DNA from: Deltaproteobacteria bacterium
GTDB taxonomy: Bacteria; Desulfobacterota; Binatia; UBA1149; JAJCZL01
Direction: 5' to 3'
Length of the DNA stretch: 58,841 bases
Assembly: GCA_029262415.1 (NCBI GenBank)
Contig: JAJCZL010000060.1
Coordinates: forward strand, 1-58,841
The translations under genes were made by a program, and so were the position numbers. The notes below the pieces were generated by a model that saw only the letters and a list, made by a program, of their open reading frames with translations, did not search any database and was not told where the DNA came from. Shown here in pieces: positions 50,291 to 58,841 of this stretch. Within the stretch, counting starts at the first letter, position 1. The number at the start of each line of letters is the position of its first letter.

Positions 50291-51499
50291 ATGATAAGAT
50301 GGACAGTCGTCGCGGCATCAGCCGCATTCATTACCGTGATGGGAACTGGTGTGGGGTTGGCCAACGCGGTTCCCTCGGCGGACATTCAATGCGCACGTTC
50401 AGTTTCGCTGGCGACACAAGCATTGCTGCGCGCCGACGCGCGCTTTCTCAACCGTTGCCTGTTGGCCACCCAAGACGACCGTAGGGCTTTCCCCGCCGAT
50501 ACGCTCTGCGCCGCATTGCGCACCAAGGGCAAAGGCATCGACCAACGCGAACGGAAGACGCGGCGCATTATCCAAACGCGATGCCGACGTGAGCTACCCG
50601 CATGGTTGCCGGTGGCTTGCAACGCGCCCGGCAGTTGGCTGGGTCGCAGCGTCAATAGCGCCGCCGATCTGGCCGAATGCGCCGTACGCTCAACCCACTG
50701 TGCGGCGCTCACGTCCGTCGGCTCGACCTTCGACAACGTCTCGAACCTGCTCGGCGCGCAGAACAGCGCCAACCTTACGTTCGAGTACAGCGAGTCACCG
50801 GGAAACACTCTCGCTGGGTGTTTTGCCGCGGGGCCGGTCCCGACAACGACCACGTCAACGCTACCCTCACCAGGCACGACCGTGCCGATGGTGACGACAA
50901 CGATGCCTGCAGCAACCACAACCACGCTCGGACAGTCAACCACAACGACGGTTGGACCGACGACGACAACAGTCGGCCAGGCAACAACGACGACGACGAT
51001 CATCACACCGGCGACCCCGACCTTGGTGATTACCGAGTTCATGAGCAATCCGGCCGCACAGTCCGACTCTGCGGGCGAGTACTTCGAAGTTTTCAACGCC
51101 GGTGCTGCCGGCGCACAGCTTGAAGGACTTACCGTTGCCGACCTCGGCTCCGATTCGTTCACGATAGATCTGCCGCTAACGCTTCCAGCCGGCGGCTACG
51201 CGGTGTTCGCGAAAAGCGCAACGGCTGCAGACGGTCTCGGCGTTTTCGTTTACGCGAGCCGTATGAGTCTGACCAACAGCGCCGACGCGATCGTGCTCAG
51301 CATGAACGGCGTTGAGATCGACCGAGTCGTCTACGACAGCACGTTTCCGCTCACGGCGGGAGCCGCGACGGAACTCGACCGAGACTCGACAGACACGGCC
51401 ATGAATGACAATCCGACGGCTTGGTGTGACGCTCAGGCCCCAATGGCCGACGGCGACTCGGGAACACCCGGATCAGCGAACAGGAGCTGCGCACCGTAG
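50291..51499 (+). CDS. Exported protein with threonine-rich linker and lamin-tail domain
   Basis: 402 residues. Signal peptide (about 1-26); a Cys-containing helical domain (about 30-175, CARSVSLATQALLRADARF, RRIIQTRCRREL); a threonine-rich linker of about 60 residues (VPTTTTSTLP, MPAATTTTLGQ); and a C-terminal lamin-tail domain (LVITEFMSNP, EYFEVFNAGAAGAQLEGL, then ADAIVLSMNGVEIDRVVY). Lamin-tail domains occur in secreted nucleases and surface proteins. Linker and Cys pattern resemble exported proteins of unclassified deltaproteobacterial genomes. Function unknown; it converges on the propeller-like gene. Confidence 0.7.
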   Translation: MIRWTVVAASAAFITVMGTGVGLANAVPSADIQCARSVSLATQALLRADARFLNRCLLATQDDRRAFPADTLCAALRTKGKGIDQRERKTRRIIQTRCRRELPAWLPVACNAPGSWLGRSVNSAADLAECAVRSTHCAALTSVGSTFDNVSNLLGAQNSANLTFEYSESPGNTLAGCFAAGPVPTTTTSTLPSPGTTVPMVTTTMPAATTTTLGQSTTTTVGPTTTTVGQATTTTTIITPATPTLVITEFMSNPAAQSDSAGEYFEVFNAGAAGAQLEGLTVADLGSDSFTIDLPLTLPAGGYAVFAKSATAADGLGVFVYASRMSLTNSADAIVLSMNGVEIDRVVYDSTFPLTAGAATELDRDSTDTAMNDNPTAWCDAQAPMADGDSGTPGSANRSCAP

Positions 51500-51732: not shown

Positions 51733-53193
51733 CTATCTCTTGCTCTTGCGCGGGGGGCGCACCGCTTTTCCCAAGATAGGCTGATAACAGCCGTTGGCGG
51801 GATTGCAGCAACCCTGTTCCGGCATACAAACTGACGCCGAGTCTCGAGGATCGTGGCGTTTCAACTCGGTGTAAATGAAGACTTGGGTCAGTCCATTGAG
51901 ATTGTGGCCTGGAATTAGGTCGCAGGTTGAAATAAAGGCCACGCCTCGGCCATTACCGGTGATGGTGGGAAACTGGTTGTCGCAATTTTGTGTCCGGGTT
52001 ATCTGGCGCACGCGCCGCGTGCCGTCGAGGCGAAAGATCTCCCTATTGCCGTCGGTGTTAAATGGCGGGGGTCCACCTAGTTTCGCCCGCTTGTCGGGAT
52101 TTATCAGTTCGGATATCGATTCAAGGGCGATTTTTGCGCCACCGTCGCTGACTACCGGACTCGTAACGGATGCTCCTTCGACCGCTGTGAACTGGCGTAG
52201 AACCGGATGGAGAACCCTATACTTGTATACCTGGAAGCCGCTGACGCCGACGCCGAACAAGTCCGCGTCGCTTACAAATACCGCCGAAGGGCCTCCGGCA
52301 CTCAGGCCGGTCCCCGACATGCTCGGCTGAACGCTGAAGGTGCCGGGACTATTTGAAACCGACACCTGAGTGGTCAGCGCTGCACCACGTTTGAACTGGT
52401 AGACGTTTGTGCCGCTAGCGCCGTTGCTGAGCTGATCGTGGTCGGATTCGTAGGTGATCGACTCGCACTGATTGGGAAAGAAGAACCCTCCCACACTCGG
52501 TGAACGGCTGGTGGTGCCGATAGGTCCGGAACTGACCTGGGTGAACTGGAAATCTTGGTAGGTCTTATCGGCAAAGTCGACATAGTACACTTCGGGACTA
52601 CCGTCTGTGTTGCTCAGCCCTGTCGGTGGTGTGAGCGGTCGCGAGCCATCGTTGTCGTCGATGTCTCCGGTAGATTGGAACACGATACAGCGGCCGGTGT
52701 CGCTCGGTGCCGGTACGGTGTTGACTACCGGCGCCAAGGTGTTGGTCAACTGACGAATTGCGCCACTATCTTGGATCCATATGAACAGTTCCGGATTGCC
52801 GTCGGCGTTGCCTACCGACGGCTCCAGGTCCCCGGTAGAAATGAAAGCGATAATCGAAGGCCATTTCGTGCGCCAGTCGTCGGTAAGTCGAGAGGCGCTA
52901 TAGCTTTCACCTCCCGTCGTAGAGGTTATCCTCTGGGTGCTCTTCGTTAGAGCATTGTAGAGGTAGACCTCGCGGTGTCCGAGTTGAGACGTGCCCGGTC
53001 CGAGCACGTCGCCGTCGGACGTGAAAACCAGCTCCTCTCCTCGTATCTGACGAATACGTGGTTCCCAAATATTACCTTCGGTTATCGACGTCGCTTGGAC
53101 AAGTATGTGGCGGTCGGCGCTCTTGGCACTTACCGCGGATGGCACGAGCATAGCCACCACGAGTAGGAAGAATTTTGGGAACATATGAACCAT
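51733..53193 (-). CDS. Secreted beta-propeller-like (TolB/WD40-type) protein, paralogue A
   Basis: 486 residues with a signal peptide (MVHMFPKFFLLVVAMLVPSAVSA). Repeats of the TolB-like type: FTSDGDVLGPG, AFISTGDLEPSVGNADGNPE, CIVFQSTGDIDDNDG, ITYESDHDQLSNG, IALESISELINPD and FISTCDLIPGHNLNG, as in six- to seven-bladed propellers. A C-terminal cysteine cluster (GCCNPANGCY) precedes a basic tail. A full paralogue, cut by the window edge, is at 57543. No catalytic residues recognised. A candidate promoter is at 53288-53317. Confidence 0.75.
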   Translation of the reverse strand: MVHMFPKFFLLVVAMLVPSAVSAKSADRHILVQATSITEGNIWEPRIRQIRGEELVFTSDGDVLGPGTSQLGHREVYLYNALTKSTQRITSTTGGESYSASRLTDDWRTKWPSIIAFISTGDLEPSVGNADGNPELFIWIQDSGAIRQLTNTLAPVVNTVPAPSDTGRCIVFQSTGDIDDNDGSRPLTPPTGLSNTDGSPEVYYVDFADKTYQDFQFTQVSSGPIGTTSRSPSVGGFFFPNQCESITYESDHDQLSNGASGTNVYQFKRGAALTTQVSVSNSPGTFSVQPSMSGTGLSAGGPSAVFVSDADLFGVGVSGFQVYKYRVLHPVLRQFTAVEGASVTSPVVSDGGAKIALESISELINPDKRAKLGGPPPFNTDGNREIFRLDGTRRVRQITRTQNCDNQFPTITGNGRGVAFISTCDLIPGHNLNGLTQVFIYTELKRHDPRDSASVCMPEQGCCNPANGCYQPILGKAVRPPRKSKR

Positions 53194-53287
53194 CGCCTAT
53201 AAACCAGGGTAAAAACGAAATACAGATCGTAACAGACTCGCAGCCTTAAGCTACGGCCGGTCAAAGTCTCTACCTGCAGCCGTGGTC

Positions 53288-53317
53288 ATGATAACGTCCC
53301 TTACCGTTTATCGTCAA
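53288..53317 (-). promoter_or_regulatory. Candidate promoter for propeller protein A
   Basis: On the minus strand TTGACG (53312-53317) is followed after 18 bases by TATCAT (53288-53293). This is a good sigma-70 match, with an expected start near 53281 and a leader of about 90 bases to the ATG at 53193. The rest of 53194-53442 shows no gene. Confidence 0.45.
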
Positions 53318-53442
53318 GTACAAATCACGCCGGGTTCACCCCCATGTGGGTAGTGTCCATGGAACTCGCTACCAGTTATCTGACGGACCGGGACGACGAA
53401 ACCGGGCCGTTTAATCCGAACGCTTCGCTGCTCGTAGCGCCC

Positions 53443-55107
53443 CTACTTCAGCTGCGCCTTGTACTGCGAATCGGTGTCCTTCTTGATCTCGTTCATCGTT
53501 GCCCCAATGCAGAGCCCATCGCTCGTGAGCATCTGGATCGTCGGCGCGATGTTGCCCGTAAGTAACGCGACGACTCCAGTTGGCAGCGCGGTCTGGAACT
53601 TGGCCGCACTGTTCTTGCCTTTGGCGTCGGCCTTGCCCTTTCCGGGATCGCCCGACACATAGCCTATCTTCGCAATGCCGTCGGTCGAGTTGTCCTTGTC
53701 CTTGTATCCGTAGCCCTTCGTGCCCTTGGCCTTCCAGCAAGGTTTGCTCGCGCACGTCTGACCTGCGCGAGCCACGCTGAAGCCCTGGACGAGGCCGCCG
53801 AGGTCGTCGTAGATGCATAGAGCGACGCTAGTGCTATCACCAACCGGGTCGCCGAACGCGCCCTGAGTGGTTGTCGTGGCAACCTTCTTCCACTGAAGCT
53901 TCATCTTCTCCTTCCCGACGCGCTCCTCGTTGTAGTCGAGCTTGGCCCGGACCGCGGCGGTACAAACGGGCTGCGGCGAACTGCTACAGGCCGCGCCCGC
54001 TGGCAGCGTCGTCGTAGTGCTGCTCGTCGTCGTGCTGGTTGTCGTCGAGGTGGTCGTGGTCGTCGTGATTGTGCTAGTCGTAGTGATCGTCGTCGTCGGG
54101 GGTAGCGCAGTGAACAGGTAGCCGATATCAGCGAGGGTCTCGATCTCGAAGGCACGGTAGACTCGCTTCTTCGCTCCCGGGGCGATTGAGGGTGTCATAA
54201 TCGCCGTTGATCCGACGCCGAAGTCGAAGTGGGCCATGCTGCTGCCATTGTTCCACGTCGACGGCGAGTAGATTGGAGGCGAGCTGCCAAAGGCGGTGGT
54301 TGCAAGCGGCCCGGTGAATACGACGTCGTTGCTCGTCAGGTCGGCCGCGTTGGCGTTGATCACGCCTCCGGCCAGGTAGAGGTCCTTCCCCCCAACGTCT
54401 GTCTCCAAAAAGCTGTCAAATGCGGCAAAGACTCCACTTACGCCCGGGTTGTTGTTGGCGATGAGGCTGGTGCCATCCGATGCTGCGAACGACAAGATGC
54501 CGAGACCATGGGTGACCTCGTGCAGGATTACCGAGAATAGGTCGAACTCGCCAAAAGCTGGGTTGCCGGTGCCAGAGTTCCACGAGTAGCCGAAATCAAC
54601 GGTCGTAACTACGTCGGGAACCGCTCCACTCGGGTCTATACCCGTGGTTAGGTGGTCAAAGGCGAAGCCGCCTGCAAAACCGTCGGGCGCGCCGAATACG
54701 AACGGTCCGGCAGCGGCCAGGAAGCCCGATCCGTCAAGCTGCGAGACCTGAAATTCGATGTCGAGCGTACCCAGCTCGTTTAAGACCGCATCAACGTAAC
54801 TAAGTACGGCGGCCACGGTCGCTCTGCGCGTAGCACCCTCGACCGGATCATCGAAGCCTATGCCGGTAGCCGTTGTCACGTCCAGGTAGGTCACATTATA
54901 GGTCCCCACCGCTGCTGCGCGCTCGACAACGGCTTCTGGCTGCTGCGGCCAGTCGGATTCATAGATGAGTTGCCAGTTGCCATCGCCGTCGCGGTAGCCG
55001 ACTTGACGATCTTCGGCGGCCAGCCCGGGCCCGACAAGCACTGCGCAACTCAACGCTGCGACGGTCAACGTGAAAGCTACCGCAGATAAACGGACCAAAA
55101 GTCTCAT
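53443..55107 (-). CDS. Exported zinc metalloprotease-like protein with threonine linker
   Basis: 554 residues. Signal peptide (about 1-30); a protease domain with HEVTHGLG (His196, Glu197, His200) after DLFSVILHE; a pure Thr/Ser linker (about 335-370); and a C-terminal region with CIYDDLGGL, SKPCWKAKGTKGYGYKDK and GKGKADAKGKN. Downstream of HEVTHGLGILS the position of the third metzincin ligand is Ser, not His; a later residue may serve. Homologous linkers and lysine-rich tails occur in exported proteins of deltaproteobacteria-like genomes. GGGGGG sits 7 bases upstream of the ATG. Confidence 0.75.
   Translation of the reverse strand: MRLLVRLSAVAFTLTVAALSCAVLVGPGLAAEDRQVGYRDGDGNWQLIYESDWPQQPEAVVERAAAVGTYNVTYLDVTTATGIGFDDPVEGATRRATVAAVLSYVDAVLNELGTLDIEFQVSQLDGSGFLAAAGPFVFGAPDGFAGGFAFDHLTTGIDPSGAVPDVVTTVDFGYSWNSGTGNPAFGEFDLFSVILHEVTHGLGILSFAASDGTSLIANNNPGVSGVFAAFDSFLETDVGGKDLYLAGGVINANAADLTSNDVVFTGPLATTAFGSSPPIYSPSTWNNGSSMAHFDFGVGSTAIMTPSIAPGAKKRVYRAFEIETLADIGYLFTALPPTTTITTTSTITTTTTTSTTTSTTTSSTTTTLPAGAACSSSPQPVCTAAVRAKLDYNEERVGKEKMKLQWKKVATTTTQGAFGDPVGDSTSVALCIYDDLGGLVQGFSVARAGQTCASKPCWKAKGTKGYGYKDKDNSTDGIAKIGYVSGDPGKGKADAKGKNSAAKFQTALPTGVVALLTGNIAPTIQMLTSDGLCIGATMNEIKKDTDSQYKAQLK
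54002..54107 (-). repeat. Low-complexity ACN codon run encoding the threonine linker
   Basis: About 106 bases of near-repetitive GTC/GTG/GTA triplets on the plus strand, that is ACN threonine codons on the coding strand with a few Ser and Ile. Codon choice is mixed, so it is not a single-unit microsatellite. Mucin-like, probably extended and possibly O-glycosylated. A similar run is in the lamin-tail gene at 50836-51015. Confidence 0.75.
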
Positions 55108-55801
55108 GGCAAGCCCCCCTTATCATCTAACTCCGACCGCGGGGGCCGGACGGGATGTTGGTGCGCCAGTAGCCCCACGCGGACTGCGGTAGTCTACTCA
55201 AGTGGACACGCTGCTGCCAAGGGTTTTCCCGTAGATCAAATGCAATATTTTCATCGTGCGATTGACCGCCACCCGTTACAGTCAGCCCGCGACCAACTGG
55301 CCCGCCCCATACACCCCGCCGAGCAACAAAACCCCCGGGCTACGTGCCGGTTTCCGCGCGGAACTCGCCGGGGTTTATGGGATTGCACAAGCCTTGCGTC
55401 GCCAGCGCCACGGGCGCACCTTGAGCCATTATTATGTAGGGAGGCCGGGTAGGTTCGGCTGAGTTTTGGCACCGTACGGCGTGTCGAGTTCGGGCTCCCT
55501 CCTGGTGGCGCCGGTGTCGAACCCGTTCGATGCCGACCCGGGGAATGATAAGGATCCAGAGACGCACACGTTAGTGGTCACGATCACCAATCCACGGAAC
55601 ATCTGTCTTTTCGCGTCCGATGTGAAGGACTCCGGTCCTCCTTGGGGGACGCATGATCGTGGCCAACTACGGCGGTCGGAGCCGGTTCGGCGAGCGTGCC
55701 ACCGCGATCCCGATCTACGTCGAGGAATAGAAGCGGCACTGACCTACTAGGCCTGAAATAAGCGCTAAGCCAATCGGCAAAGCGCGCAAGGTCTGTGACC
55801 T
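55108..55801. other. Long intergenic stretch without a resolved gene
   Basis: About 690 bases. Short open frames exist on both strands, for example plus 55466-55750 (with VVTITNPRNICLFASDVKDSG), but none has a clear ribosome-binding site, family motif or convincing codon pattern. They may be decayed genes. The promoter of the metalloprotease should lie near 55130-55250. No hairpin with a T tract, tRNA or repeat was seen. Confidence 0.4.
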
Positions 55802-56839
55802 CTACGGGGCCAACAGCGACTGTCCCGGCAGAGACGGGTCGAGAAGGCTGAGATCGACGCCCATCGCTGCGAGGATCGTCGGCGTGACGTCGAGGATCGT
55901 CGGGTTAACCGCCGCCGGATTCAAGCCGATACCGCTTGCCGAAATCGGGATATCTGTGATTTCGGCGCCATCGCGGAGCTGATGTTGGGCGCCCGTAGGA
56001 TTAAAACCGTGGTCCGCACTCGTGAATACTAGGGTATTCTCTGCCAAGCCGGCTGCCGATAGCGCATCGAGTGTTTTCCCAACATGCTCCCACCCTAATA
56101 CGATCGCCTCGTCATAAGCCACGTTCCCGCCTCCCGTCTTATGTGCTGCCCAGTCGGCGTTCTTCATATGGATGACGAAGAAGAACGGTTTCTCATCGAC
56201 CTTGAACTTGTCGATTAGAGCAACGGCCGCCGCCAAACTGTTGTTCCCACTATATAGTGGACGGCGGTCGTTCTTACGTCTCAGCATGTCCTCACGATCG
56301 AGTACTCCATCGCGCCTATCTTGTTTGAGCGGACGGAGCAGAAACCGTGAACTGCCGGAGATTGCGAGATTGATTTCGTCACCGAACGCCGCACGCAGCT
56401 GGGCGAAAATGCTCATGCCGGAGGGGATACGACCCCCGCCGCCGTTGTTCCTGATGACACCGGTTACCTCGGGGGGTTGGCCTGTTAGCATTTGCGCGGT
56501 CTGTGGTTTTGTCATGGTTTTGCCCGGGCCGACCGTCGCGTTCAGCGATTCGAAATGAGTGCAGCGAGTAGGCAGGCACGTCCACGTCGACAGTGTCGGA
56601 CACCATTCGGGCATCCTTGCCGGCGACTTGGAACTCGGACAAGGAGTGGCATCGCCTCCCGCCCAGTAAAGAAGCTCGTTGGTCTTCGAGATCCTATGTC
56701 CATCCATCTGGAACAGTATGACGTTAGGGGTGACGCCGGGTAACACCCTTGATGCGGTTCCTCCCGAAGACACCAGTAGCCCGAGTACGGCCGCGTAGGT
56801 CAGACAGGTCGCCGCAACGAGCTTAGCAAGTGCTTTCAT
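55802..56839 (-). CDS. Exported alkaline-phosphatase-superfamily protein (phosphodiesterase/sulfatase-like)
   Basis: 345 residues with a signal peptide (about 1-30). Superfamily motifs: ILFQMDGHRISKT (metal-site Asp46), a candidate nucleophile region TMTKPQTAQMLTG, VIHMKNADWAAHKTGG (metal-binding Asp and His), VFTSADHGFNP, and the C-terminal DVTPTILAAMG. The metal ligands look intact, unlike 16852-18231, so it is probably catalytic on a phosphate or sulfate ester. ATG 56839 has GGAGGG about 7 bases upstream. Residues 14-61 are encoded by a segment also present as a second copy at 57161-57304. Confidence 0.8.
   Translation of the reverse strand: MKALAKLVAATCLTYAAVLGLLVSSGGTASRVLPGVTPNVILFQMDGHRISKTNELLYWAGGDATPCPSSKSPARMPEWCPTLSTWTCLPTRCTHFESLNATVGPGKTMTKPQTAQMLTGQPPEVTGVIRNNGGGGRIPSGMSIFAQLRAAFGDEINLAISGSSRFLLRPLKQDRRDGVLDREDMLRRKNDRRPLYSGNNSLAAAVALIDKFKVDEKPFFFVIHMKNADWAAHKTGGGNVAYDEAIVLGWEHVGKTLDALSAAGLAENTLVFTSADHGFNPTGAQHQLRDGAEITDIPISASGIGLNPAAVNPTILDVTPTILAAMGVDLSLLDPSLPGQSLLAP
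56656..56799 (-). repeat. 144-bp duplicated segment, copy A (inside the phosphatase-like gene)
   Basis: Identical to 57161-57304 at 138 of 144 positions by direct reading, in the same orientation, 505 bases apart. It encodes residues about 14-61 of the phosphatase-like protein. Confidence 0.9.
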
Positions 56840-57070
56840 GGTGAGGGCCCTCCGTAGTCCTGTGCATGCAATGGCTGAATGCAGAAGAGGCGTCATTGAT
56901 ACCATGTCTGAACATTCACTGTCGAGGGGGCTGCCCGAATCACACCCGATCGGGGGGCAGCAAGTGCGCTATAGCGTGTCTAAGCGGCCCAAGCGAGCGT
57001 GACGAAGGATCGGCCCAGTGACGGCGCGCATCGGGGGGTCGTCAGGCTCGCCCGCGGGCCGCAGAGAATT

Positions 57071-57320
57071 CTATCTGGCGGCGGCGGCGCGCTGCTCGGT
57101 CGCTGTTTTGAACTCGTAGCGACCCACAACATCGCTTACATCGCCCTCGACCAGTTTCCACTCCCGCCCAGTAAAGGAGCTCGCTGGTCTTCGAGATCCT
57201 ATGTCCATCCATCTGGAACAGCATGACGTTAGGGGTGACGCCGGGTAACACCCTTGATGCGGTTCCTCCCGGAGACGCCAGTACCCCGAGTACGGCCGCG
57301 TAGGAGACGGCGAGGTCCAT
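57071..57320 (-). pseudogene. Truncated duplicate of the phosphatase-like gene 5' end
   Basis: From an ATG at 57320 the frame reads MDLAVSYAAVLGVLASPGGTASRVLPGVTPNVMLFQMDGHRIS, matching the intact neighbour through YWAG. Homology then stops and the frame runs through unrelated sequence (VETGRGRCKRCC) to a stop near 57042. Another frame of the non-homologous tail reads WKLVEGDVSDVVGRYEFKT to a stop at 57071. It lacks all catalytic motifs after the first. A partial duplication or leftover of a deleted paralogue is likely. The rest of 56840-57542 shows no gene. Confidence 0.65.
57161..57304 (-). repeat. 144-bp duplicated segment, copy B
   Basis: Second copy of the segment at 56656-56799, with six substitutions and no indels. 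Four of the substitutions change an amino acid or are near-synonymous (for example N to S, I to M, S to A), so the copies diverged after duplication. Confidence 0.9.
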
Positions 57321-57542
57321 ACGCGAGCTAACAGAATCGTCGGGGAAACATTCGTGCTGGGCTCCCCCACCGGGGGTCTGGCCCACATGCACACGCGTCT
57401 TGATCTTCGACGAACACGAGCCCTTTTTGCCGGCAAAGCCGGGGGGACTCCCAGTTTTTTCTAGCGTCTTGATGCACGCGGCCTGTGGGAAGGGCGATAC
57501 TTACCGAAGGTCCTGCAGTGCTGGGTCCTGGCTTACCGATCA

Positions 57543-58841
57543 TCAACACCCGCGCTTTTTATTCAGGCAGTTCTTCCGCGGCAGAGACTTGCCGCGACCG
57601 TCGATGGACCGATAGCAACCGTTCGCCTCGCTACAGCAGCCCTCGCTGACCAAGCATCCCCCTGGTTCCAGCAGTGGATCGGCCTTGACGACCTGCTCAT
57701 ACAGAAAGATCTGAGGAAGGCCGTTGGGATTGTTGCCCGGAATCAAATCGCAGGTCGAACGGAACGCGATGCTGGTTCCGTCGTCTTGAATGCTACTCAT
57801 GCCATTCTCACAACCGGCCGGGCTGTCAGTGACCTGACGCAGGGCCCGCCGTCCTTTGCTTCGGAAGATTTCCTGATTGTGATCGTCGTTGAAGGGAGGC
57901 AACTCGCCGTTGCGTACCTTGCGGACTGGGTCCATCAACTCGGCATTCGATTCAAAGGCAATCCGCTTACCGGCGTCGGAGGTTACCGGACGACGCGCGT
58001 AGTACGGCGACTCGGCGCTGGAGACCTGAGAGGTGCGGGGATGTCGGATGTGATACTTGAAAACGTTGACGCCCGAGTTGCCGCTGTTGAGAACATCGAC
58101 GGCGGTATCGTACACAACGTAGGGCCCAGTGGCAAAGATACTGGCACTCGACATGGTCGGGTTGTCGTAGAATACCGGCGTGCCAGGGGCACCAATGGGC
58201 AGACCGGTCGGGTTCTCCCGAACTCTTACCGAAAACTGGTCGACGACTCCGGAGTTGCGTCTAAAGCGATAGATATTGACGCCGGTGGCACCGTCCCCAA
58301 GTTGATCATGGTTCGATAGATAGAACGTTTGCTGGCACTGGCGGGGGAAGTAGTAGTCACCGACCACAGGGTTCCAACTTGAGGTTCCCACCGGGCCGGT
58401 ACTTACCTGTGTAACACTCTCGACCAGTATGTGATTGTCTTGATCGAGTCTTGCCAGAAACACCTCTTGGCTACCATCTGCATTGTCCCATCCGGTTGCG
58501 GAGTGAGTGATGTCACCACCGGTGTTGTCGTCGAGATCGCCGGTCGAGGCGAACACGATGCACCGACCAGAATCGCTGGCATACGGCGTCCTATTCTCGA
58601 CGGGAGCACGCGTGTCGGTGAGCTGTTTGGTCTGCCCGGACAATAGCTCCCACAAGAAAACCTCGGGGTTGCCATCGGCATTGCCCACACTAGGATCGAG
58701 ATCACCGGTTGAAATAAACGCCACGAACTCGGCATGAGATGTCGCCGTGTTGTCGGTCGCGCGGGCCTGGTCGTAACTTTCCCCCGAACCACTGTTCGTC
58801 ACCTGGGACATCACACGAGTCCGTGTGTCCCATATGTAGAG
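57543..58841 (-). CDS. Secreted beta-propeller-like protein, paralogue B (N-terminus beyond the window)
   Basis: At least 432 residues; the frame continues past the right edge (first visible codons LYIWDTRTRVMSQ), so start and signal peptide are not seen. It aligns throughout with 51733-53193: AFISTGDLDPSVGNADGNPE, CIVFASTGDLDDNTG, YLSNHDQLGDG, IAFESNAELMDP, FRSTCDLIPGNNPNGLPQIFLYE, and the C-terminal cysteine cluster GCCSEANGCYRSI followed by a basic tail. No catalytic motif was seen; a binding, adhesive or scaffold role is possible. Confidence 0.75.
   Translation of the reverse strand, partial: LYIWDTRTRVMSQVTNSGSGESYDQARATDNTATSHAEFVAFISTGDLDPSVGNADGNPEVFLWELLSGQTKQLTDTRAPVENRTPYASDSGRCIVFASTGDLDDNTGGDITHSATGWDNADGSQEVFLARLDQDNHILVESVTQVSTGPVGTSSWNPVVGDYYFPRQCQQTFYLSNHDQLGDGATGVNIYRFRRNSGVVDQFSVRVRENPTGLPIGAPGTPVFYDNPTMSSASIFATGPYVVYDTAVDVLNSGNSGVNVFKYHIRHPRTSQVSSAESPYYARRPVTSDAGKRIAFESNAELMDPVRKVRNGELPPFNDDHNQEIFRSKGRRALRQVTDSPAGCENGMSSIQDDGTSIAFRSTCDLIPGNNPNGLPQIFLYEQVVKADPLLEPGGCLVSEGCCSEANGCYRSIDGRGKSLPRKNCLNKKRGC

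Follow-up and report, generated by a model that had tools for sequence, protein, structure and literature searches.

Do the cysteine-rich ends of two exported proteins encoded near one end of a Binatia contig act as an anchoring or export tag, and does the region hold a better candidate for such a tag? The DNA in question (the window) is the entire contig JAJCZL010000060.1 (C60), 58,841 bases of a 3.9 Mb genome assembly in 83 contigs (GCA_029262415.1). A first-pass annotation had described here a pair of paralogous secreted propeller-like proteins, P1 and P2, whose conserved C-terminal cysteine cluster and basic tail might be an anchor or export signal. We consider them, with moderate confidence, to be exported propellers of Binatia closed by a C-terminal disulphide clasp that is structural rather than an address label. 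With due caution, the element of this region more likely to serve as a sorting or anchoring tag appears to be the C-terminal module of the metalloprotease encoded between them. The pair comprises the following features.

51733..53193, minus strand: P1, propeller paralogue 1, 486 amino acids, signal peptide at about residues 1-23 (by eye), seven predicted blades (from open reading frame, alignments, model and repeats)
51736..51828, minus strand: putative C-terminal cysteine clasp and tail of P1, residues 456-486 (C456, C462, C463, C469), the four cysteines invariant in 16/16 family members
57543..58841, minus strand: P2, propeller paralogue 2, C-terminal 432 amino acids; N-terminus on contig C42, within L053:8132-8629
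57546..57656, minus strand: putative C-terminal cysteine clasp and tail of P2, with an additional cysteine pair

The two proteins do align along their length, as first described, with 44-46% identity across the shared length in pairwise alignments and a BLASTP score of 356 bits, where the best of 200 shuffled versions of P2 reached 31.2 bits. Both carry STGDL, the D-x-D-G loops earlier called DADG-rich, CDLIPG and GCC-x3-NGCY. One correction to the earlier description of the pair is needed: P2 is not full-length in the window. Its gene is interrupted at the contig end, and C42 supplies the signal peptide and the first ~75 residues. C42 ends in 141 bases (L053:8489-8629) that also open the reverse complement of C60 (window 58701-58841), an exact overlap of assembly type which joins the two contigs and runs through the P2 gene. 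The signal peptides of P1 and P2, judged by eye, support secretion in the sense of export.

The propeller-like nature of the pair is likewise supported, by a structure model and by seven sequence repeats. No Pfam family matches P1 at E <= 1; P2 reaches 23.1 bits with PD40 (PF07676) over the whole protein (cut-off 20.9), with no single stretch above the cut-off, and PD40 is the only Pfam match among the 16 members of the family described below (4/16 at E <= 0.01). Seven copies of the motif F/Y/L-x-S-x-x-D/E-L/V/I/Q lie along P1, at residues 57, 117, 172, 248, 306, 357 and 420. An AlphaFold2 model of P1 from 10 aligned sequences has a predicted local distance difference test score (pLDDT) of 82 and a predicted TM-score of 0.84. 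Its first propeller strand begins at residue 28, directly after the signal peptide, and our reading of the DSSP list indicates that the strands form seven blades, with the N-terminal strands closing the last blade. Foldseek placed oligogalacturonate lyase, TolB and S9 peptidases at the top for this model. Realignment of the Foldseek candidates with VIA-align gave CylK entries at all of ranks 1-5 (best Z 29.1, root-mean-square deviation 2.9, 360 residues), followed by an S9 peptidase (Z 25.6). A sequence search of the PDB found no chain at E <= 1; relaxing the limit to E <= 10 added just two, both of thioredoxin (E 1.6 and 1.9). Together, model and repeats indicate that P1 and P2 are seven-bladed beta-propellers, closest in fold to the propeller of CylK.

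The distribution of the family was followed in genome samples of 13 genomes from the same order and 148 from the same class (145 in the secretion-system profile searches), with 98 genomes used for the propeller-family search. That search yielded 16 members at E <= 2e-98 (15 full-length and the truncated P2), which came from 9 of the 13 order genomes and from no other; below them ranked the start of P2 on C42 (8e-20) and then partial matches from 9e-13. A profile of the tail recovered no further family member in the 148 class genomes. A pattern scan of a species collection with the family alignment, which was not exhaustive (known members of G003, G009 and G010 were not returned), gave 24 loci: 8 full-length members, with record titles naming Candidatus Binatota or Binatia (4), Deltaproteobacteria (3) or "bacterium" (1), and 16 weaker matches, most of which are partial and many of which come from records of Acidobacteria and Chloroflexi. 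The family is apparently undescribed, a word by which we mean, throughout, not found in Pfam, NCBIfam or the literature searched, where most subscription journals and preprints are missing; in these samples it is confined to one order of Binatia. Within that literature no publication on beta-propellers of Binatota was found, and words such as secretion, propeller and C-terminal do not occur in an mBio paper on Binatota (PMC8262859). A further protein of the same genome (L055:7717-9123, G000:C58) gives weak partial matches to the propeller; it has at least two repeats which we take to be dockerin-like, DANGSGTLTSSDALLVLQAAVGQ.

A midpoint-rooted tree of the 16 members separates a clade of 6 including P1 from a clade of 10 including P2 with support of 100/100, so that the pair is not the product of a recent tandem duplication. 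Judging from this tree, P1 and P2 are anciently separated members of two old clades.

Eight cysteines are invariant in 16/16 members. In P1 numbering, C169, C243, C404 and C424 sit in the blades, and C456, C462, C463 and C469 lie at the end. The loop within the terminal cluster is three residues longer in two members, and an extra cysteine is present near the end in 7 of the 15 members having a residue there. The conserved cluster of the earlier description thus stands; its basic tail is not a uniform feature. Past the cluster, neither the length nor the charge nor the sequence of the tail is constant, with 2-8 Lys/Arg and 0-3 Asp/Glu in the 14/16 members counted.

Family membership, conservation, the predicted fold, the invariant cysteines and a tail confined to the family are the observations from which we propose the following. 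P1 and P2 would leave the cytoplasm via Sec and fold in the envelope or outside the cell. Disulphides among the eight invariant cysteines would close the propeller, the C-terminal cluster acting as a clasp that fastens the end of the chain to the ring, and one face of the propeller is predicted most likely to bind an envelope or extracellular polymer or peptide. Loops of the form N-x-D-x-N/S-x-E in three blades resemble calcium sites, and since the CylK propeller binds calcium between blades, calcium binding is likely here by analogy. Several points weigh against this proposal. The P1 model was built from 10 sequences, we infer the disulphides from cysteine conservation, and the case for secretion comes from the signal peptide only. 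A structural tail could still serve a single family as a recognition site. The neighbourhoods gave no functional partner, the sole repeated recognised neighbour being an SGNH-type gene (two members and one remnant).

That the cysteine-rich end is itself an export or anchoring signal, as first suggested, now seems unlikely, in spite of its terminal position and its four invariant cysteines. A profile built from 17 tails matched 18 places in the 13 order genomes at E <= 4.3e-14 and the same 18 in the 148 class genomes, where the next match has E 0.002. Sixteen are the C-termini of the propeller family and two are gene remnants. The first remnant is a 48-residue open reading frame (ORF) in G010 (L045:12136-12282) which repeats the propeller C-terminus ~2 kb downstream of a family member. 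The second, an ORF at C42:5853 in the same genome as the window, places a copy of the tail behind a frameshifted reading frame resembling an SGNH hydrolase, and could be counted in favour of a tag.

L054:5078-5990 (G000:C42): SGNH-hydrolase-like remnant fused, probably through a deletion, to a propeller end; intact arrangement in L049

The simplest reading of this ORF is a deletion by which the SGNH remnant became joined to the last part of a third propeller, now lost, because G001 holds an intact propeller after the same SGNH gene in the same order (two acyl-CoA dehydrogenases, SGNH, propeller, two sulfatase genes); it was rejected as a second carrier. With both non-family matches being remnants, no independent carrier of the tail was found, and a general sorting tag, which should sit on many unrelated proteins, was dismissed for the tail across the 148 class genomes. 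Furthermore, the tail has no hydrophobic helix (highest 15-residue hydropathy 1.15), its charge is variable, and it is modelled as folded, with residues 451-480 of P1 at pLDDT 87-88.

The fold raises a further alternative, that the propellers are CylK-type alkylating enzymes or another propeller lyase, and CylK and oligogalacturonate lyase are indeed the best VIA-align and Foldseek matches. We consider this very unlikely. Oligogalacturonate lyase has metal-binding histidines, and no His is invariant or nearly so among the 16 members; no catalytic site was recognised in the propellers. In CylK, substitution of Arg105, in the N-terminal domain, or of Tyr473, in the propeller, abolished activity (PMC8916777). 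The present proteins are therefore CylK-like in fold and yet not CylK-type enzymes, since the domain supplying Arg105 is absent. The CylK propeller is described as seven-bladed, with unusually long internal loops and a blade-bridging calcium at each blade junction (PMC8916777), and we infer similar loops in P1 and P2. Beyond the seven blades that they are predicted to share with the CylK/BrtB propeller domain (PDB 7fh6, 7ron), P1 and P2 differ in lacking the N-terminal calcium-binding domain and any detectable sequence relation, and in having a signal peptide and eight invariant cysteines.

A TolB or Tol-Pal component, the kind of protein with a known job whose match would have spoken against the first-pass annotation, is highly improbable: despite TolB chains among the top Foldseek matches, NCBIfam TolB (TIGR02800) gives 33.3 bits for P1 and 12.7 bits for P2, far under its cut-off of 343 bits, the genome's own TolB lies on contig C38 (346.5 bits, over cut-off), and TolB has six blades, against seven repeats in P1, and an N-terminal TolB_N domain, of which the Pfam searches given above found no trace in the propellers.

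The metalloprotease encoded between the propellers ends in a different kind of element.

53443..55107, minus strand: metalloprotease-like protein with HExxH; NCBIfam NF038122 at 30.2 bits, under its cut-off of 80; carries the module
53446..53961, minus strand: recurrent C-terminal module, 172 amino acids, one of 16 strong copies in its own genome
53989..54096, minus strand: Thr-rich linker ahead of the module (counted on the sequence)

A search with this module as a single sequence found 16 copies in its own genome, the window copy included, and a profile search found 16 strong copies (E <= 6e-37) and one weak copy (E 3e-4, internal stop). For each of the 16 strong copies, 0-2 residues remain between its end and the stop codon; one copy begins where a contig does, and another is a short ORF of 187 residues. 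The module has no Pfam or NCBIfam match, apart from single chance-level matches among the 16 copies (E 0.03-0.06), and no match in the PDB (one at E 0.4). AlphaFold2 modelled it from 2 sequences at pLDDT 31. Its partners are diverse. A Pfam scan covering 10 of the 15 other carriers in the genome, some of them truncated 5' by the locus boundary, found astacin with MAM, M64 peptidase, cytochrome c, beta-helix, FG-GAP and BNR domains over cut-off; a second, multihaem-like protein was under cut-off, and the rest had Cys-rich repeats only or no match. The N-terminal parts of 43 carriers fell into 17 clusters, the largest (n=20) probably held together by shared Cys-rich repeats. Another Thr-rich linker occurs in the protein at 50291-51499, where the domain behind it is of a second kind, a Lamin Tail Domain located towards the C-terminus.

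With up to 24 candidates per genome scored (24 being reached in 14 genomes), the module is present in 53/148 class genomes at E <= 1e-4, and at the 30 top class loci (one per genome, window copy included) it ends 0-7 residues before the stop in every case. In a phylum sample of 395 genomes, with 9 candidates per genome scored, it was found in 8, all of the same class. Outside the class it was found in 0/10 genomes reached via loci of other records, a set without a positive control. Two viral scans and a tblastn search of plasmids returned nothing that would indicate a viral or plasmid origin. A rough signal-peptide heuristic was positive for 14 of the 15 own-genome carriers with a complete 5' end and for 6 of 8 class carriers. 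It lends weak support to carrier export, because it was also positive on 11/23 window ORFs and 58/108 neighbourhood ORFs. The module is apparently undescribed, and seems the more interesting find; no publication on C-terminal secretion or sorting domains of Binatota or Binatia was found in the literature searched.

The module is tag-like in that sorting domains, too, are terminal, have diverse partners and occur in high copy number. It is tempting to propose, at somewhat less than an even chance, that it is an undescribed sorting or surface-attachment domain of Binatia, and that a dedicated route recognises it and so brings a large number of unrelated exported proteins in each genome to the cell surface or medium. 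Such a system would resemble the type IX secretion (T9SS) of Bacteroidota with its C-terminal domain (CTD), with a different domain and possibly a different machine. The likeness to the T9SS CTD, which has an Ig-like seven-stranded fold, is that of a domain-sized C-terminal piece on diverse, probably exported cargo; the module differs in its 172 residues and in having no Pfam or NCBIfam match. To MYXO-CTERM, PEP-CTERM and GlyGly-CTERM tags, which combine a signature motif, a hydrophobic helix and a basic end (PMC11980579), it is similar only in being C-terminal and in having many unrelated carriers per genome, and neither the module (highest 15-residue hydropathy 1.64) nor the propeller tail (1.15) has a hydrophobic helix.

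Known machines were of little help in the choice. The T9SS profile TIGR04189 (SprA) matched in 0/145 class genomes, but also in 0/14 control genomes. The type II secretion (T2SS) secretin GspD was found twice above cut-off in the genome of the window and in 143/145 class genomes at E <= 1e-5 (107 above cut-off). Being nearly everywhere in the class, it does not discriminate between carriers and non-carriers of the module, and T2SS is not singled out. GspD copy number, inspected by eye as a possible correlate of the module, was confounded by family and not used.

An alternative, possible though again short of probable, is that the module is a substrate- or wall-binding domain and not a translocation or sorting signal. 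Many secreted enzymes have C-terminal binding domains behind Thr-rich linkers. No machine reading the module was found, and the module is larger than the T9SS CTD, known from a 73-residue construct (PMC4804311). On the other side, the partners of the module include cytochrome c, FG-GAP, BNR and beta-helix proteins besides peptidases, and in every copy examined it is terminal, as tags more often are than binding domains.

A phosphodiesterase-like gene also lies between the propellers.

55802..56905, minus strand: type I phosphodiesterase / sulfatase-superfamily protein, 367 amino acids; PF01663 at 37.2 bits and PF00884 at 32.3 bits, both above cut-off

The pair thus flanks a metalloprotease and a phosphatase-like gene of the Phosphodiest/Sulfatase superfamily, just as the first-pass annotation had stated. 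A stable cluster of propeller, metalloprotease and phosphodiesterase was considered and rejected: neither neighbour recurs at any of the 14 other member loci, in a comparison with a crude choice of ORFs (wrong-strand ORFs in a few) that may miss weak repeats. The phosphodiesterase-like gene has its 5' end duplicated in the DNA upstream, as a truncated ORF (57042-57392); the two copies form a 144-nt direct repeat, 96% identical, at 56656-56799 and 57161-57304.

With this pair, a lineage that has received little study gains a propeller family of CylK-like fold with a putative cysteine clasp. Of wider importance is that the only recurrent C-terminal module in the region belongs to the protease encoded between the two propellers. 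If this module is a sorting domain, it would define a secretome in one step for a large part of Binatia (53/148 genomes), and the question would become which outer-membrane machine reads it.

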